Position numbers and translations under genes: made by a program. This document shows, one piece after another, positions 21,761 to 38,995 of a stretch of 64,000 nucleotides of DNA. The DNA comes from Streptosporangiaceae bacterium (GTDB lineage: Bacteria; Actinomycetota; Actinomycetes; Streptosporangiales; Streptosporangiaceae): the NCBI GenBank assembly GCA_025964695.1, contig JAOPYK010000004.1:1-64000 (forward strand), read 5' to 3'. Every line of letters starts with the position of its first letter. The first letter of the stretch is position 1. The notes under the pieces are model-generated. The model was not told the origin of the DNA, did not search any database, and was given only the letters and a program-made list of their open reading frames with translations.

Positions 21761-22384
21761 CTAGGGGCGGGTGCCCGTGACGAGGTCGCCACGGAGGGCG
21801 TGCTCGACGAGGGAGATCAGCACTTGCTTGGCGGAGTCGCGCTGCCGTACGTCGCACAGGATGACCGGCACGTCGGGGTCCACGTCCAGCGCGGTGCGGA
21901 TGGCCTCCACGCTGTGCCGGCGGGCCCCCTCGAAGCAGTTGACGGCGACCACGAACGGGGTGTTGCGTCGCTCGAAGTAGTCGATGGACGCGAAGCTGGC
22001 CGTGAGCCGGCGGGTGTCGGCCAGGACGATCGCCCCGATCGCGCCGTAGGAGAGTTCGTCCCACATGAACCAGAATCGCTGCTGGCCAGGTGTGCCGAAC
22101 AGATAGAGCGCGATGCCGTCCGGAAAGGTGATGCGGCCGAAATCCATGGCGACGGTGGTGGTGGACTTGCTCTCGATGCCCTGGATGTCGTCGACGCCGG
22201 TGCTCGCGTCGGTGAGCACCTCCTCGGTGCGCAGTGGGCGGATCTCGCTTACCGACGCCACCATGGTGGTCTTGCCGACGCCGAACCCGCCGGCTACCAG
22301 AATCTTGAGTGCGGCCACCGGGCCGTTCGAGGAGTCGTAGGGCACGGAGTCATAGGGCACGGAGTCATAGGGCACGGAGGTCAT
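21761..22384 (-). CDS. cvnD: Conservon 1 GTPase-like protein CvnD
   Basis: 207 aa small GTP-binding protein. It has the P-loop GGFGVGKTT, FGTPGQQRFWFMW (G3) and VAVNCFEGA, which is NKxD-like but diverged. Conservon D proteins couple to the A-B-C complex at the membrane and resemble eukaryotic small G proteins. The N-terminus carries three VPYDS repeats encoded by a 15-bp array (about 22327-22378), absent from the paralogue at 34918-35499. The gene overlaps cvnC by 20 bp, the same overlap as in the second conservon. It is the last gene of the leftward arm of the terpenoid divergon. Confidence 0.9.
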   Translation of the reverse strand: MTSVPYDSVPYDSVPYDSSNGPVAALKILVAGGFGVGKTTMVASVSEIRPLRTEEVLTDASTGVDDIQGIESKSTTTVAMDFGRITFPDGIALYLFGTPGQQRFWFMWDELSYGAIGAIVLADTRRLTASFASIDYFERRNTPFVVAVNCFEGARRHSVEAIRTALDVDPDVPVILCDVRQRDSAKQVLISLVEHALRGDLVTGTRP

Positions 22385-22739
22385 TGAGCACTTTCCTGAG
22401 GAGAAGCCGGTCGGGCTGCTCGGCCGGCGTCGCCGCTTGCCGTACCTCGATCAATCCCTGGGAATGCAGATCTCCCAGGAGTACCCGGACCACGCCGAGC
22501 GCGAGGTCGAGTTCCGAGGCGAGGTCGGCGACGGTGTTCTGCCGCTGGCAGAGCTCCAGCAGTCGTTGCTGCTCGGGAGAGAGCCGGACGTGCTCCGATG
22601 TCGTACGCCCGGTGGCGACGAGGAGCGTGACCAGGTCGAGGCGTTCGCCCGACGGCCTGGTCCGGCCGCGTGTCATGGCGTACGGCCGGACGATCGGGCC
22701 GGCGGCCTCGTCGATCCATCTCTCTCTCGGGGAATCCAT
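22365..22739 (-). CDS. cvnC: Conservon 1 DUF742 protein CvnC
   Basis: 124 aa from ATG 22739. The DUF742 signature RWIDEAAGPIVRPYAMTRGR opens the protein, and a winged-helix-like C-terminal half (TVADLASELDLALGVVRVLLGDLHSQG) follows. It has four bases between its start and the cvnB stop. CvnC proteins associate with CvnB and CvnA. It is 46 percent or so alike by eye to its paralogue at 34563-34937 (not computed). Confidence 0.9.
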   Translation of the reverse strand: MDSPRERWIDEAAGPIVRPYAMTRGRTRPSGERLDLVTLLVATGRTTSEHVRLSPEQQRLLELCQRQNTVADLASELDLALGVVRVLLGDLHSQGLIEVRQAATPAEQPDRLLLRKVLNDLRAL

Positions 22740-22743
22740 GGTG

Positions 22744-23163
22744 TCACCCGGCGCCGGGCGCCGGCTCCGCCGATCTCGGGGCCGCGCTGAGGTGCCTGCG
22801 CACCCGCTTGACCAGCATCGCCATTTCGTAGGCGACGAGACCGGCGTTGGCGCCCGCGTCACTCAGCACCGCCAGGCAGCTGCCGGTCCCGGCGGAGGTC
22901 ACGAAGAAGAGCGCATCCTCCATCTCGATGACGGTCTGCCGTACCTCACCGGCCTCGAAGTGCTGGCGCGCTCCGTTGGCCAGGCTGTAGAAGCCGGCCG
23001 CCAGCGCGGCGAAGTACTCGGAGTCGTCCCTGGACAGGCCACGGGAAGCCGCCATCACCAGCCCGTCACGCGACAGGACCACGGCCCTGCGCACCTCACC
23101 GACCCGGTCGACCAGATCGTCCAGCAGCCAACCCAGTTCACCGGTCACATGAGATTGCGTCAC
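22744..23163 (-). CDS. cvnB: Conservon 1 roadblock/LC7 protein CvnB
   Basis: 139 aa with a GTG start overlapping the cvnA stop (GTGA). The fold signature GWLLDDLVDRVGEVRRAVVL and the terminal VAYEMAMLVKRVRRHL are typical of roadblock/LC7 proteins. In eukaryotes and Myxococcus the fold acts as a GTPase-activating or dimerisation module (MglB). CvnB probably regulates the nucleotide state of CvnD and dimerises beside the sensor. Confidence 0.92.
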   Translation of the reverse strand: MTQSHVTGELGWLLDDLVDRVGEVRRAVVLSRDGLVMAASRGLSRDDSEYFAALAAGFYSLANGARQHFEAGEVRQTVIEMEDALFFVTSAGTGSCLAVLSDAGANAGLVAYEMAMLVKRVRRHLSAAPRSAEPAPGAG

Positions 23164-25655
23164 GAGTCACCCCCTTCTTTCCCCTGTTCGGACGGGAACA
23201 AGTCTTCCTCGTCGTCGCCGCGGCCGCGCAACCAGCCCGTCTGCAGCGACGCCATGAGGTCACGGGTCTCTTCGGGACGGCGTTCGGACTCGGCGGCGCC
23301 GGGCGGTGCCGCGGTCTCGTTGCGCAGTTGCGGGACCAGATTGGCCTGCCGGATGCGCCTGGGCAGCCCCTCGTCGTCTGCGGCCGAGTCCACCACTCCT
23401 GCGTCCACCACTCCGGGGTTGACCCCTCCGGGGTTGACCACTCTTGGGTTGACCGCTCCGGGGTTGACCGCTCCGGGGTTGACCGCTCCGGGGTTGATCC
23501 TGGAGTTGTTCCACGAACTGGAGTTGTTCCACGAATCGGCGGGGGAGTCCACGACTGACGAGTCGACGACCGACGAGCCCGTGATCTGCCTGGGCTCGAA
23601 CCACCCCGATGGACCGGACGCGACTGACATCGCGGTGGCGCCCCCCGGCTGCTGGCGCCATGCGCCGGACTGATCGGCCGGTGATTCCAGCTCCGGTTCG
23701 TCCCGCTGGACGACCAGCTCGTGCGGGATGAGGACCACTGCGGTGGTGCCGCCGTAGGCCGACTGCTGCAGGGTCACGCGGATGCCGTGCCGGGCGGCCA
23801 GCCTGGAGACGACGAACAGCCCGAGCCGGTCGCTGTCGGCCAGGTCGAACTCGGGCGGGCGCGCCAGGCGCTGGTTGAGCTCGTCCAGTTCGGCGGGGCT
23901 CAGGCCGATGCCACGGTCGATGATCTCCACCGCGAATCCGTTGGCCACCGTCTCACCGCGGACCAAGACCTCGGTCGGCGGCGGTGAGAAGGCGGTGGCG
24001 TTCTCGATGAGCTCGGCCAGCAGGTGGATGACGTCGGCGACCGCGGCGGCGGCCAGTGAGGCGGGGGAGGAGCACACCACGTCGACGCGGGTGTAGTCCT
24101 CGACTTCTCCGAGGGCGCCGCGCAGTACGTCGACGATGCGCACAGGCCTGCTCCATCCTCGCCCGGCGGGAGCCCCGGAGAGGATGACCAAGCCCTCCGC
24201 GTGACGGCGCATTCGAGTGGTGAGATGGTCCAGCCGGAAGAGGTCCTCGAGCTCTTCGGGCTCGGAGGCACGGCGCTCCATGGCGTCGAGCATGCGCAGC
24301 TGGCGGTGCAGGAGGGACTGGCTCCGCCAGGCCAGGTTCAGGAAGACCCGGCTGACGCCCTTGCGCAGGTATGCCTCTCCGACTGCGGTGTCGATCGCGG
24401 TGCGCTGCACCCGGGTGAAGGCGTCGGCGACCCGGGAGATCTCCGTGGTCTTGCCGACCTTGAGTGGCGGGACCTCCGCGTTCACGTCCACCTCCTCGCC
24501 ACGGCGCAGTCGTGCCACGACCCTGGGGAGCCGTTCTTCGGCCAGGTCCCGGGCCGCCGCCTGCAGGCCGACCAGCTCGCGCGACAGGCTCCGGGCGAAC
24601 AGGATCGACAGGATGATGGAGGCCACCACGGCGATCAGACCCAGCCCGCCCGCCACGGCCAGCCTGACCACGATCTGGTCGGCGATCGGCTGTGCGCGTT
24701 TGCTGAGGGAATCGCCCGCCTGGCTGACCGCCTGCCCGAACGTCAGTGACAGCGGGGTGGTGGTCGACTGCCATTCCGCGACCGACGCCGGGAGCCGGCC
24801 CTTCGTCTTGGCGGTGAGGTTGGCGTTGACGATGGCGCTCTCCATCGCCCGGAAGCGCAGGAACTCCGGGGAGTCGGCGACCCGCTGCACCGCGTCGCGC
24901 AGGGTGCCGTTCAGGTCCGCCAGGGCGGTGTCGAATGTCAGTCGCTGGGTGGCCGACCATTGCACGAAGGCGGTGTGCTCGGCCACGGTCATCCGGCCCC
25001 CGGATGCCTGAACGGCCGAGACCAGCGCGTCTTCGCGCAGCATGTAGTCGCGTGCCCAGCCGGCGGAGACGAGCGCCCGGCCCTGCTGGATGATGTCGAG
25101 GTCGTTGACGATCACCATGCTGGAGAAGAGCTGGATGGTGGTGTCGATCATGGCGCTGTAGCCGTTGATCGCCCGGACGACGTCCGTGGGGTTGGAGTTG
25201 ATCCAGTCGCGCAGGGCGCCCAGCTGGTCCAGCTGCCGGGTGACCTGGACCACCCGCTGCTTGATCGTGGCGTTCCGCGGATCGAACGGGAGCGCGTTCT
25301 TGCGGAAGTACGCCTCCGCCGCGTCCGTGCGCGGCCGTTGCTCCTGCAACTGTGCGAGGCCCTGGCGTCCGTGCGAGCCCAGATACAGGGCGGTCAGTGT
25401 CCGTTCCTGTTGCAGCTGCATCGACAGGAAGGCGCCCGGAGTCCCGACCTTGTTGTACGTCGTGGAGATGGTATACCTGCTGATAGCAGCGCCGGTGGTG
25501 ATGCTCGCCGCGAAGCCCCAGAGCCCGATGAGGGACAGTAGCGGGATGACGAGCAGCGCGGTGATCCGCATCCGGACGGAGCGCGTTCTGGGCGGCTTGC
25601 GAGAGCCCTCGCCGTCGTCGTTCGCCGAGGCGCGGCGGGTCCACTCGGGAAGCAC
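23160..25655 (-). CDS. cvnA: Conservon 1 sensor histidine kinase-like protein CvnA
   Basis: 831 aa from GTG 25655 (AAGGAG twelve bases upstream). Transmembrane helices near residues 32-52 and 331-352 flank a ~280-residue extracytoplasmic NIT-type (nitrate/nitrite-sensing-like) helical domain. There follow a HAMP-like linker and an HATPase_c domain (AELIENATAFSP near 548, then RLGLFVVSRLAARHGI near 608). A phosphoacceptor histidine box is not obvious, as in other CvnA proteins. The C-terminal tail holds a run of NPGAV units encoded by a 15-bp array (about 23398-23502). It lies 385 bp downstream of the polyprenyl synthase gene on the same strand. Confidence 0.9.
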   Translation of the reverse strand: MLPEWTRRASANDDGEGSRKPPRTRSVRMRITALLVIPLLSLIGLWGFAASITTGAAISRYTISTTYNKVGTPGAFLSMQLQQERTLTALYLGSHGRQGLAQLQEQRPRTDAAEAYFRKNALPFDPRNATIKQRVVQVTRQLDQLGALRDWINSNPTDVVRAINGYSAMIDTTIQLFSSMVIVNDLDIIQQGRALVSAGWARDYMLREDALVSAVQASGGRMTVAEHTAFVQWSATQRLTFDTALADLNGTLRDAVQRVADSPEFLRFRAMESAIVNANLTAKTKGRLPASVAEWQSTTTPLSLTFGQAVSQAGDSLSKRAQPIADQIVVRLAVAGGLGLIAVVASIILSILFARSLSRELVGLQAAARDLAEERLPRVVARLRRGEEVDVNAEVPPLKVGKTTEISRVADAFTRVQRTAIDTAVGEAYLRKGVSRVFLNLAWRSQSLLHRQLRMLDAMERRASEPEELEDLFRLDHLTTRMRRHAEGLVILSGAPAGRGWSRPVRIVDVLRGALGEVEDYTRVDVVCSSPASLAAAAVADVIHLLAELIENATAFSPPPTEVLVRGETVANGFAVEIIDRGIGLSPAELDELNQRLARPPEFDLADSDRLGLFVVSRLAARHGIRVTLQQSAYGGTTAVVLIPHELVVQRDEPELESPADQSGAWRQQPGGATAMSVASGPSGWFEPRQITGSSVVDSSVVDSPADSWNNSSSWNNSRINPGAVNPGAVNPGAVNPRVVNPGGVNPGVVDAGVVDSAADDEGLPRRIRQANLVPQLRNETAAPPGAAESERRPEETRDLMASLQTGWLRGRGDDEEDLFPSEQGKEGGDS

Positions 25656-25675
25656 GAGATCAAGCTCCTTGTGAT

Positions 25676-25688
25676 GATCGCAGCGATC
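25676..25688. promoter_or_regulatory. Perfect 13-bp palindrome before cvnA1
   Basis: GATCGC-A-GCGATC lies just upstream of the ribosome-binding site of the leftward cvnA gene. It may be an operator or an mRNA hairpin limiting translation. A second loose inverted repeat (ATGCAA/TTGCAT) occurs near 25792-25809. Confidence 0.3.
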
Positions 25689-25883
25689 ACGTCGCCGGTC
25701 GTCCCGGACACCGCGCCGAGAATCCGTGCGGTGCAGTCTGTCCCGTCACACCGACCCCCCAAAGCAGACATGTTGCACCTCGCCTCAAGGAGATGCAAGG
25801 GCCTTTGCATGTTCCGATGCACGTGCAAGGGCGCATCGAAGAATCCCACGGCGCGGGGATGCCCAGTGCCAGAAGTCACAGAG

Positions 25884-26030
25884 CGAAGGTTGCAGTGCAG
25901 AAGGTCGCAGTGCGCAAGGTCGCAGTGCGGAAGGCCGTAGTGCGGAAGGCCGTAGTGCGGAAGGCCGTAGTGCAGAAGTCGCAGTGCGGAAGGCCGTAGT
26001 GCAGAAGTCGCGGTACAGAAGTCGCAGTGC
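25884..26030. repeat. Intergenic 15-bp minisatellite between the polyprenyl synthase and cvnA1
   Basis: About ten units of the type AAGGCCGTAGTGCGG / AAGGTCGCAGTGCGG, some shortened by one or two bases. They fill most of the 385-bp gap between the end of the polyprenyl synthase gene and cvnA1. The flanking 25690-25880 has no gene. If both genes are cotranscribed, this array sits in the mRNA leader of cvnA1. Confidence 0.85.
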
Positions 26031-26040
26031 CGGAGGGCTG

Positions 26041-27108
26041 TCAGCGCGCACGATCGACGAGGAACCGTGAAAGAGCGGCCAGCCGCCCGGCCGCCGGGCC
26101 GGTGAGTCCGGCGGTGCCGATGATGGTCATGGCCTGGTCGAGCCGGCCCTCGGCGTACTCGCGGGCGAAGTTGTATCCGCCGGCCTCTTCGATCACGCGG
26201 GCCGACCGTCGCAGTGCCCCCTCATCATCCGGCCGTGCGGACAGCAGTGCCGGATCGGCGCCCTGGGCGAGCGCGGCAACGACCGGGAGGGTCTTCTTGC
26301 CCCGGCGCAGATCACTGAAGACCGGCTTACCGGTGACCTCGGGGTCGCCCCAGATGCCGAGCAGGTCGTCGACCGCCTGGAACGCCAGGCCCAGATGACG
26401 GCCGAGCCGCATCATCTGCTCTGCCACGACCGTTGGCCCGCCCCCGAGCAAGGCGCCGACGGCGGCGGCACACCCCAGCAGCGCTCCGGTCTTGCCGGCC
26501 GCCATGGCGCAGTACTCCTCGACGGTGACGGCTCCGGGACCGGTCCATGGGCGGCTCTCGAAGGCCACATCCTCGGACTGGCCGCGCACCAGCTCGATCA
26601 GGGTGGCGGAGAACCGCCGGACCGCGGCTCCGGCGTGCTCCGCCGTAGAACGGACGAGCGTGTCCATCGCAAGTGCAAGCAGCGCGTCGCCGGTGAGGAT
26701 CGCCGGGCCGACTCCGTAGGCCTTCCATACGGTCTGACGGTGCCGGCGCTGCTCGTCACCGTCCATGATGTCGTCGTGCACGAGCGAGAAGGCGTGCACG
26801 AGCTCCACCGCGACCGCCCCGGGGATCGCGTCCGCCGCCGATCCGCCGACCCCCTCGGCACAGAGCACGGCGAGGGCCGGGCGAAGCCCTTTGCCTCCCT
26901 GCGTGCCTCCCTGCGTGCCCCCTTGCGTGTCCCGGGGGGTGCCGTCCGACTCCACCCAGCCGAAGCTGAACAATGCCATGCGGCCAGTCGATGGCCGCAA
27001 TTGGGCGACCGTATTCCGCAGTACCGGATTGACCAATTCCCAGCATCGGGAGAGAGTCTCGGCCACGTCTTTTTCGGCGCTCTCAAGGCGGGGGGCGTCG
27101 AGCGTCAT
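26041..27108 (-). CDS. Polyprenyl diphosphate synthase (GGPP/FPP synthase type)
   Basis: 355 aa E-isoprenyl synthase. The first aspartate-rich motif DDIMD is near residue 112 after KGLRPAL, and the second region is QAVDDLLGIWGD near 246. KTLPVV and the terminal basic R-A-R fit the family. It condenses IPP with allylic diphosphates to C15 or C20; small residues before the first motif (HAFSLVHD) allow either, so chain length is not settled. An unusual TQGG triplet repeat (12-bp array, about 26895-26935) sits before KGLRP. It is divergent from the P450-terpene cyclase operon and probably supplies its substrate. AGGAG lies eight bases before ATG 27108. Confidence 0.9.
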   Translation of the reverse strand: MTLDAPRLESAEKDVAETLSRCWELVNPVLRNTVAQLRPSTGRMALFSFGWVESDGTPRDTQGGTQGGTQGGKGLRPALAVLCAEGVGGSAADAIPGAVAVELVHAFSLVHDDIMDGDEQRRHRQTVWKAYGVGPAILTGDALLALAMDTLVRSTAEHAGAAVRRFSATLIELVRGQSEDVAFESRPWTGPGAVTVEEYCAMAAGKTGALLGCAAAVGALLGGGPTVVAEQMMRLGRHLGLAFQAVDDLLGIWGDPEVTGKPVFSDLRRGKKTLPVVAALAQGADPALLSARPDDEGALRRSARVIEEAGGYNFAREYAEGRLDQAMTIIGTAGLTGPAAGRLAALSRFLVDRAR

Positions 27109-27717
27109 GACGGTTCACTCCTACAGCGAAAACCCGAAACCTTCGAGATCAGGGTTACCGGATTTTAAAGCAGTTGAAACCCTGACTACTCAGAAGTTAC
27201 ACAGATTTATAACCGATGCCCGCCCCGGATCGACCGTGTTCGAGTGTGCACGCTCCGTAATGTCTACAGGGAGTGTCGCCTCTTACCTTGTGTGACGGTC
27301 CGCAGGAAACTTTCGGTCGGCCGACGTTCCATCTGGCAAGGTTTCCGGATGTCCTTCGTGTAGCTACCCCGACCTTGACCAGCGGAATCATCCGAGCACC
27401 TTCCTATGTGATCTTCGCATGTCGTTCTCCCCGAGTGGCGAACATCACTTGCCGAGCGGGCGACAGTCCGCCCGAGCGGCCTTGATACGTACGGATGATC
27501 ATGTAATACTCCAGTTCAGTACAAGCCGGTCAAAAGCATGCGAAAGTGCCACGAAACGTCCATCCACTTCTCGTGTTTCTCCCCGGTACGGGGACCCGTC
27601 GTCTGGCCCGGACATCGTCATCCGTCTGTACCTGGGTGAGGCGCAGAGAATCGTTTCGATTTTCTGTCGGGCTGCTTGTTCTTGCGTTGCCGAACCCGGA
27701 GAGAGGGATCGACGACA
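27109..27717. promoter_or_regulatory. 609-bp divergent control region of the terpenoid locus
   Basis: This is a gene-free stretch, AT-richer than its surroundings, between the leftward polyprenyl synthase and the rightward P450. It must hold promoters for both arms. A sigma70-like promoter for the rightward arm is visible at 27482-27510 (TTGATA, 17-bp spacer, AATACT), which would leave a leader of about 200 nt before the P450. Palindromic bits include TGATCA in the spacer and TCCCC-GGTAC-GGGGA near 27580. No regulator gene lies next to it other than the two conservons. Confidence 0.5.
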
Positions 27718-29085
27718 ATGTCCGTCGGTATGGAGAAAAGCCCGGCGCAGAAGGCCAAGAATTTCCCGTTGTATCGCAGCCTTCCCAGGCTTGTACGGGA
27801 TCCGTTGCAAGAGATCGAGCGGATCGCGACGGTCGCGGGCGGCCAAATCTTCCGGTTGGACTTCGGGGTATTCCGGCCCTACGTGGTGACCCATCCGGAC
27901 GACGTGCAGTACGTCCTCAAGGACAACCCCGAAGGCTTCCTGCGCGATGGAACGTTCTGGCGGCCGCTGCATCGCCTGTTCGGCGAGGGCATCATGTCCC
28001 AGGGCGAGAGATGGGCGCTCAGCCGCAAGGTCCTGCAGCCCACCCTCACCCGGAGGCACATCGCCTCGATGGCCGACCAGATGGCCGCGATCGTCAACGA
28101 CGCGGTCGAAGCCCTGGCCGAGCCTGCGCGGAGCGGACGACCGATCGATGTCAGGGCCGAGCTGGATTCTCTGGTCAACACGACCGTGCTCCGGACCTTC
28201 TTCGGCAACAAGATCTCCATGGAGCAGAACATCCTGCTCGCGCCCGCCTTCGAGAAGATCGCGGTCGCGATCGGGCTCAGGTTCCTCATGCCCTTCCTGC
28301 CCCATGCGGTTCCAGTGCCCGGGGACCGCGCCTTCCACGAAGCCGTTCGGACGATCGACGAGGTGCTCTTCCCGCTGATCCGCGAGAACCGCGGGCGACC
28401 CGCCGACGACCTCGACTTCTTCGGGGTGCTGTGCGGGGCGACCGAAATCGACGGGAGTGCGGTCGGTGACCAGTGGATCCGGGACAACCTCGTGTCCATG
28501 TTCGCCACGGCCACAGAGACGACCGCGGGTGCCCTGACCTGGCTGTGGCCGCTCCTCGACACGCATCTGGAGGTGGCCGAACGCCTTTACGAGGAGATCG
28601 ACCGCGTCGTCGGCCGTGGACCGGTCAACGCCACGCATGGGAGGGACCTGACCTATACGAGGCAGGTCATCCAGGAGGTGCTGCGCCTGTATCCGGTCGG
28701 CTGGCTGTTCCCGAGGCAGCTCGTGGCACCCCTGACGATCGGCGGTGTGAAGATCAAGGGTGGCGAGACCGTGCTGGTCAGCCCCTATCTCACGCATCGG
28801 CTGACGGAATTCTGGGACCGGCCGCTGGAGTTCGACCCCGACCGCTTCGCGGGGGGCCACAAGGCCGGTGAGAGGCGGCACCGATACTCGTACTTCCCGT
28901 TCGGCGGCGGTCCGCACAAGTGCATCGGAGAACACGTGTTCAACGCCGAGGCGGAGCTCATGATCGCCAGCATTCTCAGCCGATTCCGGCCGGTGTACAC
29001 CACGTCCATATCCGAGCGGCCGAAGATCGGGGCGACCCTGCGTCCCCGCGAGAACCTTCAGATCACGCTGCGGCCCGTCGCGTGA
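27718..29085 (+). CDS. Cytochrome P450
   Basis: 455 aa from ATG 27718 (GGAGAGAGGG upstream). The heme-binding loop FPFGGGPHKCIGEHVF has its cysteine near residue 402, the I-helix is ATATETTAG, and the K-helix ExxR is in QEVLRLYP. The length and the PHKCIGE loop resemble the longer self-sufficient-like or fatty-acid-type bacterial P450s rather than short CYP105/107 types, but no reductase domain is fused and no ferredoxin is nearby. It overlaps the class I terpene synthase start by 4 bp, so it is expected to oxidise the terpene product. P450 genes also accompany some conservons in Streptomyces. Confidence 0.93.
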   Translation: MSVGMEKSPAQKAKNFPLYRSLPRLVRDPLQEIERIATVAGGQIFRLDFGVFRPYVVTHPDDVQYVLKDNPEGFLRDGTFWRPLHRLFGEGIMSQGERWALSRKVLQPTLTRRHIASMADQMAAIVNDAVEALAEPARSGRPIDVRAELDSLVNTTVLRTFFGNKISMEQNILLAPAFEKIAVAIGLRFLMPFLPHAVPVPGDRAFHEAVRTIDEVLFPLIRENRGRPADDLDFFGVLCGATEIDGSAVGDQWIRDNLVSMFATATETTAGALTWLWPLLDTHLEVAERLYEEIDRVVGRGPVNATHGRDLTYTRQVIQEVLRLYPVGWLFPRQLVAPLTIGGVKIKGGETVLVSPYLTHRLTEFWDRPLEFDPDRFAGGHKAGERRHRYSYFPFGGGPHKCIGEHVFNAEAELMIASILSRFRPVYTTSISERPKIGATLRPRENLQITLRPVA

Positions 29086-29951
29086 CCGCTCTCGAAACCG
29101 CTGTCACCGCTGTCGAATCCGGCCGGATCTGCGCCGTCGCGGGGCAGGCCCAGCGGGAGATGCGCGAGTGGGCCGCCGCCTACCCGGGTTTGTACGACGT
29201 GAAGGTGTTCGACCCGGCGCTGTTCAGCACGCTCGCCCTCGCCACCGCGTTCAGTGGCCCGTGGTTCACCAGCGAGCAACTCCGCATGGCCAATCGCGTG
29301 TGCCTGTGGTGTTTCGGCCTCGACTGGCTCATCGACTATGTGGCCACGTCACCGGCCGAGGTCAGGGACATCGCGCAGCGAGTACAGGCCGTCGCGGACG
29401 ACGGCCCCCCCGTTCCCGGCGACGACCTCACCCTGTTCCTGGCCGCCATCCTGGACGAGCTGAAGCAGGCGGCGGCCTTCCCGGCGCTCCGCGACATCTG
29501 GCGTGACGAACTCCAGCGGATGCTGGACGCGATGGTGCTCGAATGGGAGTGGAAGACGGGAACGAGGCCGTCGTTCGAGGACTACCTCGCCAACGCCGAC
29601 AACCTCGGTTTTTCGTTCGTCTTCACCGCGCACTGGATCTCCACCGGCGACCTCGACGAAACGCCGGCGGAAGAGGTGCGTGCGGCCGGCCGGGCGGTAC
29701 AGCGGGTCCTGCGGCTGCTCAACGACCTGGGCACCTACGAGCGCGACCTGAAATGGGGCGATCTCAACGGCCTGATGCTCGGCGTCGGCCGTGCGGACGT
29801 GGAACGGCGCATCGCCGAACTCACCGCACGCAGCCGGGAACTCCTCCACCCGCTACAGGCGACCAGGCCACGGCTGGCCGGATACATGGAACGCCAGATG
29901 GACTTCTGCGCCGGCTTCTACGGGGTCACCGACTACTGGGGAAGCCTGTGA
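29082..29951 (+). CDS. Class I terpene synthase with variant metal-binding motifs
   Basis: 289 aa from GTG 29082, overlapping the P450 stop. The helix-C metal motif reads DWLID (29322-29336), a DxxxD pattern in place of DDxxD. The second motif reads NDLGTYERD (29721-29747), which keeps the N-D of the NSE triad but has Thr and Asp at the later ligand positions. The terminal aromatic RQMDFCAGFYGVTDYWGSL is typical of bacterial terpene synthases (RY-like end). It should ionise an allylic diphosphate, plausibly the bicyclic product of the next gene. The protein is shorter than most family members. Product class cannot be read from sequence. Confidence 0.85.
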   Translation: MTALETAVTAVESGRICAVAGQAQREMREWAAAYPGLYDVKVFDPALFSTLALATAFSGPWFTSEQLRMANRVCLWCFGLDWLIDYVATSPAEVRDIAQRVQAVADDGPPVPGDDLTLFLAAILDELKQAAAFPALRDIWRDELQRMLDAMVLEWEWKTGTRPSFEDYLANADNLGFSFVFTAHWISTGDLDETPAEEVRAAGRAVQRVLRLLNDLGTYERDLKWGDLNGLMLGVGRADVERRIAELTARSRELLHPLQATRPRLAGYMERQMDFCAGFYGVTDYWGSL

Positions 29952-31612
29952 GCGTCGACGATCTGATCGGCTCTACATCCGCGCCGGACATGGACGTGAC
30001 CAGCGCGGCCCAGCGACTGGTGTACGGGCTGGTCTCCGCGCCGTGGGGCCAGGTGTCTCCCTCGGTCTACGAGACCGGGCGGGTGGTGAGCCTTACCCCA
30101 TGGCTGACCGGGCATGTTCCGCGGCTGCGCTATCTGCTGGAGACACAGCGGCCGGACGGCGGCTGGGGTGCCCCGGACGACGGCTACGCGCTGGTCCCGA
30201 CCTTGAGCGCGACGGAGGCCATCCTGGCGACCCTGTGCCGCGGGACGGATGAGGCGGCCTTGGCCGAGCGGGCCGGGCGGGGGTTGCGCTTCCTGTTCCG
30301 CCGGCTGGCCGGCGACGGCGGACTGACCGGCGCCGGCCTGCCGGACATGCCCGCCATCGAGTTGATCGCGGCGTCCCTGGTCGGCTTGATCAACCGGCAT
30401 CTGGAGGCTCCGCCCGCGAGTCTCGAGGACTGGCGGGACCGGCGGCTGAGCCTGCCCCCCGGCCTGGACGACACGAAGCTCGGACTCATCCGTGCGGCAC
30501 TCGGGTCGGGCATCGAGGTCCCGGAGAAACTGAAGCACGCCCTGGAGATCGCCGGTGACGTGGCCGTCGGCCTCGATACCATCCGCCCCGAACCGACGGG
30601 GACCATCGGTGCCTCACCGGCGGCCACCGCGGCGTGGCTCGGTGGCACCGAGCCACCCGATCCCAGCAACGTGGCGCGATGGCATCTCGAGACGGTCGTG
30701 GACCTGCTTGGCGGACCCGTGCCGTGCGGCATCCCCATCACCGTGTTCGAGCGGGCGTGGGTACTGAGCGGGCTGGTCCGCGCGGGAATCCCCGTCACCG
30801 TGCCTGCGGAACTGGTGCTGAGCCTCACCGCGCCGCTCGGCCCACGCGGGGCTCCGGCGGCGGCCGGCCTTCCCGCGGACGCCGACACGACCTCCGGTGC
30901 GCTGTTCGCCCTGGCGTTGCTCGGCGCTCCGCATCCACCGGACCTGCTGCGGGCGTACGAGACCGAGACGCATTTCTGTACGTGGCCGGGGGAGGACGGG
31001 TTGTCGGTGAGCACCAACGCACATGTGCTCGAGGCCTTCGGCCAGTACGCGGCCGTCCGTCCCGACGCCGCGGCTCGCTACCGGACGACCATCGGCAAAC
31101 TCTCTGTCTGGCTGTGCCGGCAGCAGCGGCCCGCTGGGAGCTGGTTCGACCGCTGGCACGCCTCCCCCTACTACGCCACCGCCTGTGCCGCACTCGCCCT
31201 GCACGACTTCGGCGACAGGGCCGTGGACAGGGCCGACGACACGGCAGTGGACACGGCCGGCGACACGGCCGTGGACAGGGCAGTGGACAGGGCAGTCCGC
31301 TGGGTACTCAGGACGCAACGGGCGGACGGCTCCTGGGGCCGTTGGGGCGGTACCGCTGAGGAGACCGCCTACGCCGTACAGATCCTTTCACTCACCGGGT
31401 CACTCACCGGGCCGGCGTCGGACGAATGCGGGCAGGCCGTCAAGCGAGGCCACGCCCACCTGCTGTCGGGCGCCGACGAACTGGACGGTCCGCCGCTCTG
31501 GCACGACAAGGACCTTTATCTGCCCGCCGCCGTCGTCCGGGCGGCGGTGCTGGCGGCGCTGCACCTCGGCGCCGCACCTCGAGGAGCGGGCCGATTCGTT
31601 TCTGAGCGGTAA
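29948..31612 (+). CDS. Class II terpene cyclase (prenyl diphosphate cyclase), DxDTT type
   Basis: 554 aa from GTG 29948 overlapping the previous stop. QW-type repeats (QRPDGGWG near residue 68, QRPAGSWF and QRADGSWG near the end) mark the double alpha-barrel squalene-cyclase fold. The protonating motif is PADADTTSG (bases 30872-30898), i.e. DxDTT rather than DxDD. An acidic 12-bp repeat (about 31209-31296, DRAVDRA/DTAVDTA) is inserted before the last QW repeat. Class II enzymes protonate GGPP or FPP to bicyclic diphosphates such as copalyl or drimenyl types. With the class I synthase and P450 this makes a three-step terpenoid operon. Gap to cvnA2 is 214 bp on the same strand. Confidence 0.87.
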   Translation: MSVDDLIGSTSAPDMDVTSAAQRLVYGLVSAPWGQVSPSVYETGRVVSLTPWLTGHVPRLRYLLETQRPDGGWGAPDDGYALVPTLSATEAILATLCRGTDEAALAERAGRGLRFLFRRLAGDGGLTGAGLPDMPAIELIAASLVGLINRHLEAPPASLEDWRDRRLSLPPGLDDTKLGLIRAALGSGIEVPEKLKHALEIAGDVAVGLDTIRPEPTGTIGASPAATAAWLGGTEPPDPSNVARWHLETVVDLLGGPVPCGIPITVFERAWVLSGLVRAGIPVTVPAELVLSLTAPLGPRGAPAAAGLPADADTTSGALFALALLGAPHPPDLLRAYETETHFCTWPGEDGLSVSTNAHVLEAFGQYAAVRPDAAARYRTTIGKLSVWLCRQQRPAGSWFDRWHASPYYATACAALALHDFGDRAVDRADDTAVDTAGDTAVDRAVDRAVRWVLRTQRADGSWGRWGGTAEETAYAVQILSLTGSLTGPASDECGQAVKRGHAHLLSGADELDGPPLWHDKDLYLPAAVVRAAVLAALHLGAAPRGAGRFVSER

Positions 31613-31615
31613 ATT

Positions 31616-31703
31616 CGGAGATATCGGCTAAATGTAGAAATATGGCCCGAAATGTCCGATGTAGTTCATTCACCTTGAGTCGGTATCTCCGCGTTGATAA
31701 GGT
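31616..31703 (+). promoter_or_regulatory. Candidate promoter and inverted repeat upstream of cvnA2
   Basis: TTGAGT (31675-31680), a 17-bp spacer and TAAGGT (31698-31703) form a possible sigma70-type promoter for the second conservon. CGGAGATA at 31616-31623 and TATCTCCG at 31684-31691 are perfect inverted arms 60 bp apart, the right arm falling inside the spacer. A repressor bound there would block the promoter; readthrough from the cyclase gene is also possible. Confidence 0.35.
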
Positions 31704-31826
31704 TCTGCGCTGTGTGGAGCGGTGCACTGATGCCGCGTCGCATACCACGGTCTCGCGTGCCTCCGCGACCTCCAATCCCCCTGGAATACGTTGCGAGCCG
31801 CTCTACATATTGTTGGGTCTGGTGCA

Positions 31827-34127
31827 ATGCGCTTCCGCAACTCGCGTCTGCGGACGAAGATCACAGCCTTGCTACTGTCGCTCGCCGCGCTCTGGGCGTT
31901 CGCGGCCTGGGTAACCCTCCGAGAGGGCGTCAACCTGCTGGGAGTCAGCTCGCTCAACAGCGGCGTCGCCCAGCCGATCGACTCGTTGCTACCCGAACTC
32001 CAGAAGGAACGCCGGCTCTCGCTGGTTTGGCTGGGCAGCCCCGGCTCGCAGCAGCGGACCGAACTGGACGCCCAGCGGATGCAGACCGATCAGTGGGTGG
32101 TCAAGTTCGAGAAGCTGGCTCGCGGCGGCGCCGTGAAGTTCGCCCAGAGTTCACTGCTCAAGCACAACATCGATGAGGCGATCTCACGGTTCAAGACCCT
32201 CGACTCCGAGCGGAGCACGATCGATGCCCGCCTGACGGACCAGAGCCGGGCCGCCGCCTCGTTCACCGACGCCATCGACAAGATCTACCGAGTCTACGAT
32301 TCACTGGCCACCTTGGACGACAAGCAGTTCGCCCAGGACACCCGGACCACCATTCATCTCAACCGGTCCTATGAGCTCCTCTCCCAGGAGGACGCGCTGC
32401 TCTCGGGGGTGCTGGCGGCCAGACGATTCGGCGGCGACGAGTACCTGCGGTTCGTGCAGAACGTGGGCACCCGACGGTATTACACCGACGAGGCCGTGGC
32501 AGAGCTGCAGTCCACCGACAGCATCGCCTACGACCTGATATCGAACAGCCAGTCGCTGGCCGGACTGCGCACCATGGAAGACAGGGTGATGCAGCGAGGC
32601 CGAAAGGGCGCGGCTCCCCCCGTCACCGCCGAGCAGTGGCGGTCTATGGCGGACGCCTCGCTGGCCGACATGAAGGAAGGGGTGTTCGGCGCGGGCGGCC
32701 GGCTCGTCAAACGTGCCACCCCGATCGCCATCGGTGTCATCATCCGCCTGGTGCTGGCAGCCGGTCTCGGTCTCATCGCCGTCATCGCGTCGATCGTCGT
32801 CTCCATCACCACGGCACGGGCACTGATCCGGCAGCTGGAGAAACTCCGGGTCGCGGCCTGGGAGCTGGCCAACCAACGGCTGCCCAGCGTGGTCGAGCGG
32901 CTCGGGCACGGGGAGAGCGTGGACGTCGCGGCCGAGGCGCCTCCGCTGTCCTTCGGCTCCGACGCGATCGGACAGGTGGGACAGGCGTTCAACGCGGTCC
33001 AGGAGACGGCCATCCGGGTCGCGGTCGAGCAGGCCGAACTGCGGCGAGGCTTCCGAGACACGCTGCTCAGCCTCGCCCGCCGTACGCAGGGACTCGTGCA
33101 CCGGCAGCTGACCATGCTCGACACGATGGAGCGGCGCGAGATCGACGCCAGCGAGCTGGAGGACCTGTTCCGGGTCGACCACCTGGCCACCCGGATGCGG
33201 CGCAACGCGGAGAACCTCATCGTGCTGTCCGGATCGACCCCGGCCCGTGGCTGGCGGCGCTCGGTGGCGATGGTCGACGTGGTACGGGCCGCGGTGGCCG
33301 AGGTCGAGGACTACACCCGGGTCACCGTGCTGCCCTTCGGCCCGGTCGCGCTGACCGGGCGGGCCGTCGGTGACGTCACCCACCTGCTGGCCGAGCTCAT
33401 CGAGAACGCCGTCTCCTTCTCGCCGCCGTACACCGAGGTCCAGGTCGGCGGGCACATGGCCGCCAGCGGTTACGCCATCGAGGTCGAGGACCGCGGTCTC
33501 GGCATGACCGACGAGGATCTGGCCGCCACCAACCAGCGGGCCTCTAATCCGCCCGAGTTCAGCCCGTCGAGCTCGGTCCACCTGGGCCTGTTCGTGGTGG
33601 GCCGGCTGGCCGAACGGTACGGAATCCGGGTGGAGCTGAAGCGCTCCGCCTACGGTGGCACCACCGCCGTCGTCCTGATCCCCCGCGAGCTGGTGCTCGA
33701 CGAGGCCGAAGCCCCCGTTCCGGCCGCAGTCGGTGCCCTCGGCGCACCGGCCGAGGCGGTGGCCGCCCCGCCCGTCGCAGCCGCGCCCGCACTCGCACCC
33801 GCACCCGCACCGCGGACCGAACCGGAGCCTGCCATCGCCGAGAACGTGCTGCCCCAGCCGGAGGACCCCCGGCCCGTGCCCGAGCTGTCACACACCCCGT
33901 CCGGCCTGCCGTTCCGGGTACCGCAGGCGAGCCTCGCCCCGCCGCTGCGCAACGGTACGCCCGCGGCCGAGAGCCGTACCGATGATGATGACCCGGGCCG
34001 CTCGCCCGAGGAGATCCGCAGGATCGTCGGGTCGTACCAGCGCGGAACCCTGCGGGGCAGATTCGAGGCGGGCCATGGGGACGCACTGCCCGGCGACTCC
34101 GCGAACGATGACGAGCCGTCGGCATGA
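31827..34127 (+). CDS. cvnA: Conservon 2 sensor histidine kinase-like protein CvnA
   Basis: 766 aa from ATG 31827 (a TTG at 31791 is in frame but poorer). Transmembrane helices near residues 12-32 and 302-330 bracket an extracytoplasmic NIT-type helical sensor domain. A HAMP-like linker and an HATPase_c domain follow (AELIENAVSFSP near 522, GLGMTDEDL near 558, LGLFVVGRLAERYGI near 585). The C-terminal 170 residues are disordered with an Ala-Pro repeat. It is a paralogue of the protein encoded at 23160-25655; the sensor domains are much more diverged than the ATPase domains, suggesting different signals. Confidence 0.9.
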   Translation: MRFRNSRLRTKITALLLSLAALWAFAAWVTLREGVNLLGVSSLNSGVAQPIDSLLPELQKERRLSLVWLGSPGSQQRTELDAQRMQTDQWVVKFEKLARGGAVKFAQSSLLKHNIDEAISRFKTLDSERSTIDARLTDQSRAAASFTDAIDKIYRVYDSLATLDDKQFAQDTRTTIHLNRSYELLSQEDALLSGVLAARRFGGDEYLRFVQNVGTRRYYTDEAVAELQSTDSIAYDLISNSQSLAGLRTMEDRVMQRGRKGAAPPVTAEQWRSMADASLADMKEGVFGAGGRLVKRATPIAIGVIIRLVLAAGLGLIAVIASIVVSITTARALIRQLEKLRVAAWELANQRLPSVVERLGHGESVDVAAEAPPLSFGSDAIGQVGQAFNAVQETAIRVAVEQAELRRGFRDTLLSLARRTQGLVHRQLTMLDTMERREIDASELEDLFRVDHLATRMRRNAENLIVLSGSTPARGWRRSVAMVDVVRAAVAEVEDYTRVTVLPFGPVALTGRAVGDVTHLLAELIENAVSFSPPYTEVQVGGHMAASGYAIEVEDRGLGMTDEDLAATNQRASNPPEFSPSSSVHLGLFVVGRLAERYGIRVELKRSAYGGTTAVVLIPRELVLDEAEAPVPAAVGALGAPAEAVAAPPVAAAPALAPAPAPRTEPEPAIAENVLPQPEDPRPVPELSHTPSGLPFRVPQASLAPPLRNGTPAAESRTDDDDPGRSPEEIRRIVGSYQRGTLRGRFEAGHGDALPGDSANDDEPSA

Positions 34128-34158
34128 CCGGACAAACGACGCAGAGGAAGGACAACGC

Positions 34159-34566
34159 GTGGCACCGAATTCCGTTGACCTGACCTGGCTGCTGGACGAC
34201 CTGGTTGAGCGGGTGAAAGAGGCCGAGCACGCGATCGTCCTCTCCGCGGACGGCCTGCTCATGGCCGCGTCCAAAGGGTTCGGCCAAGACGACGCCGAGC
34301 ACCTGTCCGCCATCGCCGCCGGTATCCAGAGTCTCGCTCGTGGCGCAGGCGACCGCTTCGGCGGCGGCGGCGTACGGCAGACCATCATCGAGATGAAGTC
34401 GGCGTTCCTGCTGGTGACCGTCGCCGGAAAGGGTGCCTGCCTGGCGGTGCTCAGCACGGAAGAGGCCGACGTCGGCCTCGTCGCGTACGAGATGGCGATG
34501 CTCGTCGCCAGCGTCGGCCGGCACCTCAGCTCGCCGTCCCGCACAGCCGAACCGTCGGCCTCATGA
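34159..34566 (+). CDS. cvnB: Conservon 2 roadblock/LC7 protein CvnB
   Basis: 135 aa from GTG 34159, preceded by GAGGAAGG. It shows the roadblock/LC7 pattern: TWLLDDLVERVKEAEHAIVL at the start and VAYEMAMLVASVGRHL at the end. It is clearly homologous along its length to the product of 22744-23163. It is separated from cvnA by 31 bp and overlaps cvnC by 4 bp. Confidence 0.92.
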   Translation: MAPNSVDLTWLLDDLVERVKEAEHAIVLSADGLLMAASKGFGQDDAEHLSAIAAGIQSLARGAGDRFGGGGVRQTIIEMKSAFLLVTVAGKGACLAVLSTEEADVGLVAYEMAMLVASVGRHLSSPSRTAEPSAS

Positions 34567-34937
34567 GCACCGACGACGAGCGCTGGCTCGACGAGAGCGC
34601 CGGACCGGTCGTACGGCCGTACGTGATGACGAGCGGCCGGGCCCAGCCGGTACGCGGCAAGTTCGACCTCATCACGATCGTGGTCGCCACCGGCCCAGCC
34701 CCGCAGGCGCAGATCGGGCTCGGTCCCGAACATCTCGCCATCGTCCGGCTCTGCCAGGAGCCGCTGTCGGTGGCGGAGATCGCCGGGTACCTCGACCTGC
34801 CGGCCGGGACCATCCGGGTGCTGATCGGTGACGTGCGGGACAAGGGCTTCGTCATGGTGCAGGAACCCGAGCCAGAGATCAATATGCAGGATCTGCGGAT
34901 GTACGAGGCGGTCATTGATGGACTACGTGCGCTCTAG
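34563..34937 (+). CDS. cvnC: Conservon 2 DUF742 protein CvnC
   Basis: 124 aa, the same length as its conservon 1 counterpart. It opens with RWLDESAGPVVRPYVMTSGR and continues with a winged-helix-like region (SVAEIAGYLDLPAGTIRVLI). ATGA overlap with cvnB and a 20-bp overlap with cvnD indicate strict translational coupling. Confidence 0.92.
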   Translation: MSTDDERWLDESAGPVVRPYVMTSGRAQPVRGKFDLITIVVATGPAPQAQIGLGPEHLAIVRLCQEPLSVAEIAGYLDLPAGTIRVLIGDVRDKGFVMVQEPEPEINMQDLRMYEAVIDGLRAL

Positions 34938-35499
34938 GAGACTGCCGACCGCGATCAAGATTCTGATCGCCGGCGGCTTCGGAGCCGGTAAGACCACGCT
35001 GGTCGGCTCGGTCTCGGAGACCGCGCCGCTGCGCACCGAGGAGATCCTCACCGACCAGGGCGTGGGCGTCGACGACGTCTCCGGAGTGGAGGCGAAACGG
35101 ACCACCACGGTGGCCATGGACTTCGGCCGGATCACCATCCGGGACGAGTTCGTGCTCTACCTGTTCGGTACGCCGGGGCAGGAACGGTTCTGGTTCATGT
35201 GGGACGAGGTGGCCCTCGGTTCACTGGGCGCGGTGGTGCTCGCCGACACCCGCCGGCTGGCCGACTGCTTCCCGTCGGTGGACTACTTCGAGCGCAACGG
35301 CACGCCGTTCATCGTCGCGGTGAACTGCTTCGAGGGGGCCCCGTCATACGACCTGGACGAGGTGCAGCTAGCCCTCAACCTGGGCACGAGGGTTCCGGTC
35401 ATGCTCTGCGACGCGCGCGACAAGGAGTCCTGCAAGAACGTCCTGATCACCCTTGTGCAGCACGCTATGCAGGTCCGCTCCGTGGTGGGCGCGCACTGA
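34918..35499 (+). CDS. cvnD: Conservon 2 GTPase-like protein CvnD
   Basis: 193 aa from ATG 34918, inside the end of cvnC. The P-loop GGFGAGKTT is near residue 18, G3 is FGTPGQERFWFMW, and the diverged NKxD-like site is VAVNCFEGA. It lacks the VPYDS repeats of the paralogue at 21761-22384. It closes the rightward arm of the terpenoid divergon. A strong hairpin follows at once, so transcription of the arm probably ends here. Confidence 0.92.
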   Translation: MDYVRSRRLPTAIKILIAGGFGAGKTTLVGSVSETAPLRTEEILTDQGVGVDDVSGVEAKRTTTVAMDFGRITIRDEFVLYLFGTPGQERFWFMWDEVALGSLGAVVLADTRRLADCFPSVDYFERNGTPFIVAVNCFEGAPSYDLDEVQLALNLGTRVPVMLCDARDKESCKNVLITLVQHAMQVRSVVGAH

Positions 35500-35526: not shown

Positions 35527-36336
35527 TCAGCCGCAGCCCTCGAACTGCGGGACGGTGGTGGTGACGGCGAGACCGGTGGATCCGAACCACTTGTGGAGCA
35601 GGGACGAGGCGGTGCCGTCGAGGTACAGCTCGGTGACGGCCTTGTTGATCTCCTCGCAGCCCCGCACGTCGCCCTGCCTGATGCCGACGCCGTACCTTTC
35701 GTCGGAGATCGGGGCGTTGACCAGCTTGACGGCCTGACCGCGCTGGCCGGCGAACCCGGCCAGGATCAGGTCGTCGGTGGAGACCGCGTCGACGGTGCCG
35801 GAGACGAGGTCGCCGACGCACTGGCTGTACGACGCTGCGGCGACCAGGCCGGCGGCTACCTTCCGCTCCTGGGTGACGCGCTTCCAGGAGTTGGAGCCGG
35901 CCACCTGGCAGAGCTTGCGGCCCTTCAGGTCACGCACGTTCTTGATGGCGGTGTCCGCGGTACGGACCAGGGTGTCCTGGTGGGCGACGTAGTACGGCCC
36001 GCCGAAGGCGACCTTGGTCTTGCGCTCCGGGGTGATCGAATAGGTCGCGAATACCAGGTCGACCTTGCCCTGCTGCAGAAACGACTCGCGCTGCGCCGAC
36101 GTGATGGCCTCGAAGGTGACCTTCTTGGCACCGAGCCGCTTGGCGACGTACTTCGCGACGTCCACGTCGAAGCCCTCGAACGTGCCGCCGGGCTTCTTCA
36201 GCCCCAGCCCCGGCTGGTCTGCCTTGACCCCGATCACCAGGGCGTCCTTGCCGGCGACCGACGCCGATCCGCCACCGACCCCGCAGGCGGTCACGGACAG
36301 CGCCAGCGCCAGCACGGGCGCCCAACGTGCTCGCAT
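35527..36336 (-). CDS. glnH: GlnH-like amino-acid-binding lipoprotein
   Basis: About 269 aa from ATG 36336 (GGGAG six bases upstream; ATG 36339 also possible). A short signal peptide ends in the lipobox VTAC. The mature part is a family 3 periplasmic binding domain with GFDVDVAKYVAKRLG, RESFLQQGKVDLVFATYSITPER and GVGIRQGD signatures for Glu/Gln/Asp binding. No permease or ATPase is adjacent; instead it follows GlnX and PknG genes, as in mycobacteria, where GlnH binds aspartate or glutamate outside and signals through GlnX to PknG. A sensing role is therefore more likely than transport. Confidence 0.88.
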   Translation of the reverse strand: MRARWAPVLALALSVTACGVGGGSASVAGKDALVIGVKADQPGLGLKKPGGTFEGFDVDVAKYVAKRLGAKKVTFEAITSAQRESFLQQGKVDLVFATYSITPERKTKVAFGGPYYVAHQDTLVRTADTAIKNVRDLKGRKLCQVAGSNSWKRVTQERKVAAGLVAAASYSQCVGDLVSGTVDAVSTDDLILAGFAGQRGQAVKLVNAPISDERYGVGIRQGDVRGCEEINKAVTELYLDGTASSLLHKWFGSTGLAVTTTVPQFEGCG

Positions 36337-36365
36337 CATCAGCTCCCTCACCGAAACGCCCTCAC

Positions 36366-36513
36366 CGAAGTTCCACACCGAGATGCCACACCGAGATGCC
36401 ACACCGAGATTCCGCACCGACACTGCCGCACCGACACTGCCGCACCGACATGCCACACCAAGATTTCGCACCGACACTCCACACCGACACTCCACACCGA
36501 CACTTCCTCACCG
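36366..36513. repeat. Intergenic 15-bp array between glnX and glnH
   Basis: About ten degenerate units such as CACACCGAGATGC, CCGCACCGACACTG and CCACACCGACACTC fill nearly the whole 171-bp gap between the glnX stop and the glnH start. Period is about 15 bp. In the leftward transcript the array is the intercistronic leader of glnH. Confidence 0.85.
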
Positions 36514-38993: not shown

Positions 38994-38995
38994 GC

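Follow-up and report, generated by a model that had tools for sequence, protein, structure and literature searches.

The locus described here raises the question of why a small set of terpenoid genes should be framed by two sensor operons, and which of the two, if either, belongs to it. It occupies positions 21761–35499 of a 64,000-nucleotide stretch, here called the window, at the start of contig JAOPYK010000004.1 (assembly GCA_025964695.1) from a Streptosporangiaceae bacterium, whose 7.66 Mb genome gives seven roadblock (cvnB-type) matches. Both operons show the gene order of a conservon (AGPS), with a histidine-kinase-like CvnA carrying a HATPase domain, a roadblock CvnB, a DUF742 CvnC and a small GTPase CvnD, and share this four-gene order, the domains and the GTPase motifs with known conservons. 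The leftward arm consists of a geranylgeranyl diphosphate (GGPP) synthase followed by cvnA1-B1-C1-D1 (cvn1), and the rightward arm of a cytochrome P450, a class I diterpene synthase and a class II diterpene cyclase followed by cvnA2-B2-C2-D2 (cvn2). Comparison with other genomes suggests, with a probability that we put at about two in three, that the product of the P450-class I-class II genes and the GGPP synthase is the ligand of CvnA2, and that cvn1 is a neighbour from another orthologue group and not the cognate receptor. The features of the locus, with window coordinates and strand, are:

21761–22384, minus: cvnD1, small GTPase of the left conservon (PF03029, ATP_bind_1, 1.1e-32; GGFGVGKT, FGTPGQ)
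22365–22739, minus: cvnC1, DUF742 protein, corrected frame (PF05331, 1.5e-33)
22744–23163, minus: cvnB1, roadblock/LC7 protein (PF03259, Robl_LC7, 4.6e-25)
23160–25655, minus: cvnA1, NIT-domain histidine-kinase-like sensor (PF08376, NIT; PF02518, HATPase)
25885–26030: 15-bp tandem repeat (minisatellite) of about 10 copies between the GGPP synthase gene and cvnA1
26041–27108, minus: GGPP synthase (PF00348, polyprenyl_synt, 3.6e-54)
27109–27717: divergent intergenic region, 609 bp
27718–29085, plus: cytochrome P450 (PF00067, 3e-64; FGGGPHKCIG)
29082–29951, plus: class I diterpene synthase (PF19086, Terpene_syn_C_2; LDWLID, NDLGTYERD)
29948–31612, plus: class II diterpene cyclase (SQHop_cyclase_C; DADTT)
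31827–34127, plus: cvnA2, NIT-domain histidine-kinase-like sensor (PF08376, 1.6e-35; PF02518, 3.8e-12)
31944–32696, plus: sensor region of CvnA2, codons 40–290, co-varying with the biosynthetic enzymes
32802–33746, plus: kinase half of CvnA2, codons 326–640, evolving with CvnB-D
33894–34124, plus: C-terminal tail of CvnA2, codons 690–766, retained on kinase loss
34159–34566, plus: cvnB2, roadblock/LC7 protein (PF03259, 1.9e-27), start probable
34563–34937, plus: cvnC2, DUF742 protein (PF05331, 4.3e-33)
34918–35499, plus: cvnD2, small GTPase (PF03029, 6.8e-32), start probable

By Pfam every gene lies where the sequence-only reading of this DNA had placed it, apart from corrections of frame and start, and its gaps of 385, 609 and 214 bp are all correct. 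Its description of two complete conservons around a terpenoid set stands as to layout and completeness, but the frame of cvnC1 had to be changed; the open frame 22381–22719 has no Pfam match and was rejected, and 22365–22739 matches DUF742. The probable start positions are 34159 for cvnB2 and 34918 for cvnD2. The reading frames of the P450 and class I genes share 4 bp, as do those of the class I and class II genes, and the 385- and 214-bp gaps lie between the enzymes and their conservons.

The connection of cvn2 with the class II cyclase is found far beyond this genome. From a scan of genome contigs the best 80 of 283 class II cyclase relatives were taken, and to lessen the best-hit bias 60 of the 65 low-ranked matches listed in a 297-genome family search were added, leaving out G083, G098, G129, G162 and G172 as near relatives of others. 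A cvn gene is located downstream of the cyclase in the same direction in 80/80 of the best relatives and 60/60 of the lower-ranked ones. The 141 loci gathered reduce to 133 distinct ones after removal of duplicates, the present locus included, and cvn2 genes stand behind the cyclase in all 133, with cvnB seen in 122 and both cvnC and cvnD in 124; at nine loci the sequence stops after cvnA. L208 and L229 have a cvn2 operon without a recognisable cvnB between cvnA and cvnC, and a roadblock search of G031, the genome of L229, likewise found none there. Among further, weaker relatives in 18 genomes, cvn genes follow the cyclase in 17 of 19 loci. In 50 of the loci a GGPP synthase family is found near the cluster in 27, and the next commonest neighbour family in 13; the constant unit is P450-class I-class II-cvnABCD with the GGPP synthase family as the sole other common neighbour, and no shared output gene was found among the neighbour families of these 50 loci. 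A cyclase match at E < 1e-30 is present in only one of 346 genomes sampled across the phylum, namely the present one, and outside the two NCBI families of the other carriers one is known, a Micromonosporaceae metagenome-assembled genome (MAG; L117). Twelve genomes of 1–3 contigs contain 52 class I synthase genes, of which 11 have a cvnB no more than 10 kb away against 1.05 expected, and 10 of these 11 belong to this cluster, the tenth, in G122, after a separate check. A general link between class I terpene synthases and conservons was considered and rejected, because of the 42 genes that remain when these 10 are set aside only 1 is near a cvnB, the cluster gene of G031 being counted among the 42 since its operon is without cvnB. 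Two variants of the layout were seen: in L046 and L056 (17.3–21 kb) a second conservon stands in tandem about 1.5–2 kb past cvnD2, and in Nonomuraea loci, such as L058 and L067, the class I synthase is inverted between the class II gene and cvnA, or unrecognisable.

Co-variation within the cluster was measured over the 88 loci with all seven genes, 30 of the 118 loci with a full CvnA being left out for a missing or cut-off gene. The sensor was taken as codons 40–290 of cvnA2 (1–290 in the partial-correlation test) and the kinase half as codons 381–640. Distances between CvnA2 sensors correlate with those between the P450s (r 0.77), the class II cyclases (0.67) and the class I synthases (0.60), and distances between the kinase halves with those between CvnB-D (r 0.90). 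The partial correlation of sensor and P450 is 0.70 given CvnB-D and the kinase half, and still 0.54 when the class II cyclase is also held, and that of kinase half and P450 is 0.01 given CvnB-D and the sensor. Regression of the P450 distance gives 0.58 for the sensor, 0.26 for class II and -0.01 for class I. CvnA2 is therefore a protein of two evolutionary halves, a kinase half that goes with CvnB-D and a NIT sensor that goes with the biosynthetic genes, the P450 most of all. The same is seen in a later set of 107 loci (5671 pairs), where the CvnB-D distance is below 0.12 in 380 pairs, of which 203 have a P450 distance above 0.4; in all 203 the sensor distance exceeds 0.45 and the kinase distance is at most 0.17. 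None of the 5671 pairs combines a P450 distance above 0.45 with a sensor distance below 0.30.

The halves can also side with different genera. The P450 of Microtetraspora glauca is at a distance of 0.30 from that of Microbispora hainanensis and 0.52 from that of its congener M. malaysiensis, and its CvnB-D shows the opposite (0.19 and 0.06, respectively); the sensor sides with the P450 (0.43 against 0.57) and the class II cyclase is undecided (0.32 against 0.31). Specificity alleles would give just such cassettes, closer to those of another genus than to those of a congener, and they speak against a purely internal use of the product, in which CvnA2 would report the level of an antibiotic-like diterpenoid so that synthesis or tolerance can be tuned, and cells would not communicate. 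Feedback of this kind should produce the same co-variation between sensor and enzymes, and there is a precedent in cvn8, the Streptomyces coelicolor conservon that represses an adjacent lanthipeptide cluster (PMC13343842). On the other hand no transporter or resistance gene is constant around the cluster; the GGPP synthase is the one neighbour family that was identified, and none of the others is seen in more than 13 of the 50 loci. Feedback or self-protection is in our judgement a doubtful explanation.

Where the two halves meet is visible in Microbispora. Six genome pairs were picked by hand, three with a large and three with a small P450 distance. Upstream of the cluster the DNA of M. bryophytorum and that of M. 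siamensis are 90–97% identical for about 5 kb; identity falls to 84% in the bin that precedes the P450 gene and to 61–81% between that gene and the middle of cvnA, and is again 90–98% from mid-cvnA through cvnD and for about 3 kb beyond, where alignable sequence stops. In the CvnA protein identity is 32–83% up to residue 300, 72% in residues 301–325 and 92–100% in residues 326–625, with the step at the second membrane helix. No such island was found in the three same-type pairs. An island of this kind might be left by linked recombination with no ligand relation at all, the 5' half of cvnA being replaced together with the enzymes and the conservon regulating the cluster on an unrelated cue; the sensor half is only 0.2 kb from the class II gene, and the breakpoint sits where conserved sequence starts, the kinase half being the nearest stretch for crossing over. 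This we regard as unlikely, as the sensor explains the P450 distance better than the intervening class II gene does, and two further observations, on relocated CvnA proteins and on cvn1 (below), speak against it.

A predicted structure of the CvnA2 sensor (pLDDT 88, pTM 0.81) matches at E < 0.001 only NasR (4akk; two chains, TM 0.65–0.67), and the sensor profile likewise matches only NasR (E 1.1e-11). By this model the sensor should share the fold of the NasR NIT domain; NasR is a nitrate regulator, whereas the ligand of CvnA2 is predicted to be a diterpenoid. That NIT-type CvnA proteins sense something besides nitrate has been called likely but untested (PMC13343842).

Fifteen of the 133 loci are without a full CvnA, the kinase having been lost, and they allow the association to be followed when the cluster is broken up. 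An operonic P450 is present in 118/118 loci with a full CvnA (117 of full size) and in 0/15 without. The class II tree has at least eight supported changes, and the P450 is concordant in 8/8 independent contrasts (p 0.008), also when L080, whose cyclase was extracted as 91 residues only and whose place in the tree is unsure, is omitted and when L219 is scored as P450-less; all trees come from quick searches, with SH-aLRT as the sole measure of support. All 15 genomes have another full CvnA adjoining a relocated enzyme, elsewhere or on the other arm, next to a P450 and a class I synthase in 12, a P450 alone in 2 (G642 and G645) and a class I synthase alone in 1 (G287). CvnA thus adjoins the P450 or class I synthase even where these are not close to the class II gene, contrary to what linked recombination would give. 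The relocated CvnA proteins (those in the tree and two further genomes, 14 rows) make up one clade, sister to CvnA2, and from the sequences one module seems to have spread, displacing resident enzymes and kinase. As far as the fetched stretches go, cvnB-C-D come after the relocated CvnA in G139, G067 and G646, and in G287 and G289 only a cvnC-like match does; G139 and G067 show a second mirror, with cvnD-C-B-A-class I synthase-P450 leftward and class II-cvnB-C-D rightward. In genus g38 a module-type P450 (above 700 bits) is found in 3 of 23 genomes, all three tail-only, and 19 of the 20 others have a P450 match of 308–429 bits adjoining the class II gene. The tail-only state had been predicted for G191, G163 and G149 and is seen in all three, G163 alone being new (G191 corresponds to L098 and G149 to L066). 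Modules at L284, L287, L288 and L290 score only 314–435 bits, and a search above 700 bits would miss such types.

The presence of P450 and CvnA together without the class I synthase in G642 and G645 would fit an accessory role of the P450, as a CvnE-type protein that physically modulates CvnA, with the terpene synthases incidental. CvnE-type P450s go with CvnA proteins lacking sensory domains (PMC13343842). The CvnA2 at this locus carries a NIT domain (1.6e-35), so the P450 was not classed as CvnE-type, and the class I and class II genes also co-vary with the sensor; such a role seems highly improbable.

Loss of the kinase leaves a remainder. Upstream of cvnB-C-D, 14 of the 15 kinase-less loci still match the CvnA tail (about residues 677–763); the match is longer in L086 and L092, and L092 and L113 have additional CvnA remnants. 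After kinase loss the tail, of the type GLPxRxPQxxL ... RSPEE ... QxGTxxGR, is a short open frame between the class II gene and cvnB (L048, L060, L066, L086, L092, L111 and L113), and tails related to it are found at the end of CvnA1 and other CvnA proteins. Because it is retained in genomes that have lost the kinase, the tail is a candidate docking peptide for CvnB-D.

The left conservon has a different history. In the CvnA tree CvnA1 and its relatives form one group (support 99) and CvnA2 belongs to another (support 91), so a local duplication as source of the two conservons is rejected, CvnA1 grouping with conservons elsewhere and CvnA2 with class II-linked ones. All 12 loci of cvn1 relatives that were fetched lie away from terpenoid genes, barring one 39-bit P450 match (L179); nine neighbours from two of these loci are of such kinds as transport proteins, regulators and acyl-CoA dehydrogenases. 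In G001, a MAG of another genus, the cluster has a GGPP synthase but no adjoining cvn1 (the contig reaches 1.9 kb further), and cvn1 is found on a separate 12-kb contig, flanked by orthologues of the window genes 41688–45352 and 49084–54077. In Actinomadura craniellae (G066) cvn1 adjoins an orthologue of the window gene 11239–11763, with PucR about 8 kb off and, further out, matches to much of window 57–83 kb. In P450 and CvnA2 sensor the window is closer to G001 (65% and 54% identity) than to its own genus (46% and 39%), and the CvnA1 sensor is nearer to the genus (67%) than to G001 (43%), as are the cvn1 kinase and CvnB-D. Since the kinase and CvnB-D of cvn2 are also nearer to G001, the whole cvn2 cluster differs in history from cvn1. 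On the simplest reading, drawn from few genomes, cvn1 would be the resident, and a cassette with its own conservon would have been placed beside it in the ancestry of the genus.

The mirror arrangement with cvn1 is known from the present genus only, in 2/2 genomes. The second one, G048, is the only other genome of the genus examined, and it keeps the arrangement with cvnB1 96% identical and the four enzymes down to 46–69% identity. As the mirror is in both genomes, and the class II-cvn2 unit in 133/133 and 17/19 loci, the arrangement is more than chance. The conservation in relatives on which the sequence-only reading had made its proposal depend is in part borne out, by the mirror in both genomes of the genus and by another pair in genus g67, and in part not, G001 having no adjoining cvn1. 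In g67 (L287 and L288) a different outward conservon pair stands around divergent P450-class I and class II arms, with an extra class I synthase beside cvnD.

That reading had taken the two conservons as paralogous equals which frame the locus as a pair and have the terpenoid as their output or their signal. The layout kept in both genomes despite the divergence of the enzymes, and the mirrored pair in another genus, would agree with this. The equality fails, in that cvn1 and cvn2 are different orthologue groups, that cvn1 relatives are found away from terpenoid genes, and that the P450 follows the CvnA2 sensor and not significantly the CvnA1 sensor. For the last point 11 genomes were chosen, and with G203 dropping out 10 genomes with both conservons (45 pairs) remained. 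The raw correlations of the P450 are 0.83 with the CvnA2 sensor and 0.51 with the CvnA1 sensor; given the CvnA1 sensor, the P450 tracks the CvnA2 sensor with a partial r of 0.78 (p 0.0005), and given the CvnA2 sensor, the correlation with the CvnA1 sensor is not significant in these genomes (0.24, p 0.18). The symmetric model is thus very unlikely, and what is retained of it is that the terpenoid is the probable signal of cvn2, as the sensor co-variation indicates, but not of both conservons equally. Among cvn1 orthologues the sensor tracks its own CvnB-D with r 0.87 (78 pairs) against only 0.52 for cvn2, and this, too, is unfavourable to linked recombination.

The enzymes look intact, judged by the motifs of the class II cyclase, the class I synthase and the P450. 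The class II acid motif DxD(D/T) is DADTT at the locus and the pattern is present in 128 of 133 loci; the class I metal motifs are LDWLID and NDLGTYERD, the D...D pattern being found in 101 of 103 loci and NSE in 99 of 103. The best solved relative of the class II cyclase is an ent-copalyl diphosphate synthase (5bp8, 7.5e-111), which we take to be PtmT2, and that of the class I synthase is Sat1646 (7e4n, 1.6e-75). With these relatives a pimarane/labdane-type diterpenoid is the likely product. Sat1646 converts copalyl diphosphate (CPP) to isopimara-8,15-diene (PMC9814573), and the asp genes of Actinomadura and the spg genes of Streptosporangium yield pimara-8(14),15-diene and sandaracopimaradiene, respectively (PMC10055836). 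Like the present cluster, sat/terp1 and stt (PMC9814573) and asp and spg (PMC10055836) combine class II with class I synthases, and terp1 also has a P450; unlike it, none is mentioned together with a conservon in the excerpts of these papers. The GGPP synthase was also considered as a family 2 encapsulin cargo polyprenyl transferase and rejected (372.7 bits, against a cut-off of 450 for NF041169).

The proposed explanation is as follows. The GGPP synthase and the P450-class I-class II operon would make an oxidised diterpenoid, probably of pimarane/labdane type; the extracytoplasmic NIT-fold domain of CvnA2 would bind this compound or a close form of it; and the CvnB2-C2-D2 GTPase module, which is conserved, would receive the state of CvnA2. 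The sensor half and the genes for synthesis would together be one exchangeable specificity cassette on a constant kinase half and CvnB-D, as in pheromone-receptor systems like ComQXP. The pattern found is that of such a cassette, with synthesis genes and sensor half co-varying and kinase half and relay conserved, apart from the exceptions given below, and it is the sensor co-variation, the Microbispora island and the joint absence of P450 and kinase in 15 loci that lead us to propose a signal and its receptor. Somewhat short of an even chance, and so tentatively, the system may be a diterpenoid pheromone system, with type-specific diterpenoid signals, the NIT half of CvnA as matching receptor and a G-protein-like relay; as part of this joint reading, and no more firmly, the specificity types may cross genera of Streptosporangiaceae and Thermomonosporaceae.

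Several points weigh against a ligand relation between the diterpenoid and CvnA2. Shared ancestry is controlled for in the correlations by CvnB-D and not by a species tree, and this control is noisy. A weak partial correlation persists between the kinase half and class II (0.27, p 0.003), 9 of the 5671 pairs have a P450 distance below 0.25 with a sensor distance of 0.445 or more, and in the window itself the two halves of CvnA2 are not separated, both being nearer to G001. The relocated CvnA proteins form one clade, hence the 15 kinase-less cases reflect the spread of one module, and on the CvnB-D tree the concordance is only 5/5 (p 0.06). In G287 the relocated CvnA adjoins a class I synthase without a neighbouring P450. 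L219 (G263), a Nonomuraea-like locus, retains a full CvnA, the class II gene and the GGPP synthase, but its P450 and class I genes have decayed, to a 327-bp remnant and a truncated gene, respectively, and at L319 and L336, whose class II relatives have 47 and 50% identity, the first 1.5 kb downstream show no cvn gene; these three loci slightly lower our confidence in the ligand reading. Recombination could drag the sensor half along, being next to the class II gene, an objection weakened by the P450, which is farther off yet correlates better with the sensor. Finally, sensing for feedback rather than between cells would look alike.

Other features of the region may be mentioned. In the locus promoter-like and terminator-like sites are at chance level (1 found against 1.0 expected and 6 against 4.7, respectively), and no repeats of at least 10 nt were found in the 609-bp control region. 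A second minisatellite is located at window 36349–36500 (13 bp, about 11 copies), and window 35527–44174 contains genes for a solute-binding protein, FHA and VWA proteins and a PknG-like kinase, collinear in G048.

ComQXPA of Bacillus has a prenylated peptide signal and a response regulator, and its polymorphism ends inside ComP. The present system differs in having a predicted diterpenoid and a GTPase module, and it is not ComQXPA proper, its constant unit being P450-class I-class II-cvnABCD. The likeness lies in polymorphic synthesis and receptor genes within a conserved background; in the Bacillus pherotypes comQXP is highly polymorphic in such a background, with comQ 65–70% identical between types (PMC4408185). 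Indole prenyltransferase clusters of many actinomycetes also have a conservon always beside a small biosynthetic set, and a signalling role has been suggested by the authors (PMC3617294); they concern prenylated indoles, unlike the present cluster, and co-variation of sensor and enzymes is not described in the excerpt of that paper. On the pairing of conservons with terpenes or diterpenes no report was found among open-licence PMC papers.

Actinobacterial orders with large genomes mostly have 5–10 conservons each, and the sensory input of these systems has been called largely unexplored (PMC13343842). The excerpt of the same paper gives no established CvnA ligand, whereas in the present family a diterpenoid gene set goes with the sensor half. 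The cluster family names a candidate ligand class for conservons and indicates the sensor half that should carry the specificity. We know of no earlier ligand for a conservon, and if the explanation is true this would be the first, and the system would be the terpenoid equivalent of pherotypes. Natural swap pairs exist in those Microbispora species that have almost identical kinase halves but differ in their sensor and enzyme cassettes, which makes the question directly testable, and if true the explanation would give a reason why so many rare actinomycetes retain this diterpenoid cluster.

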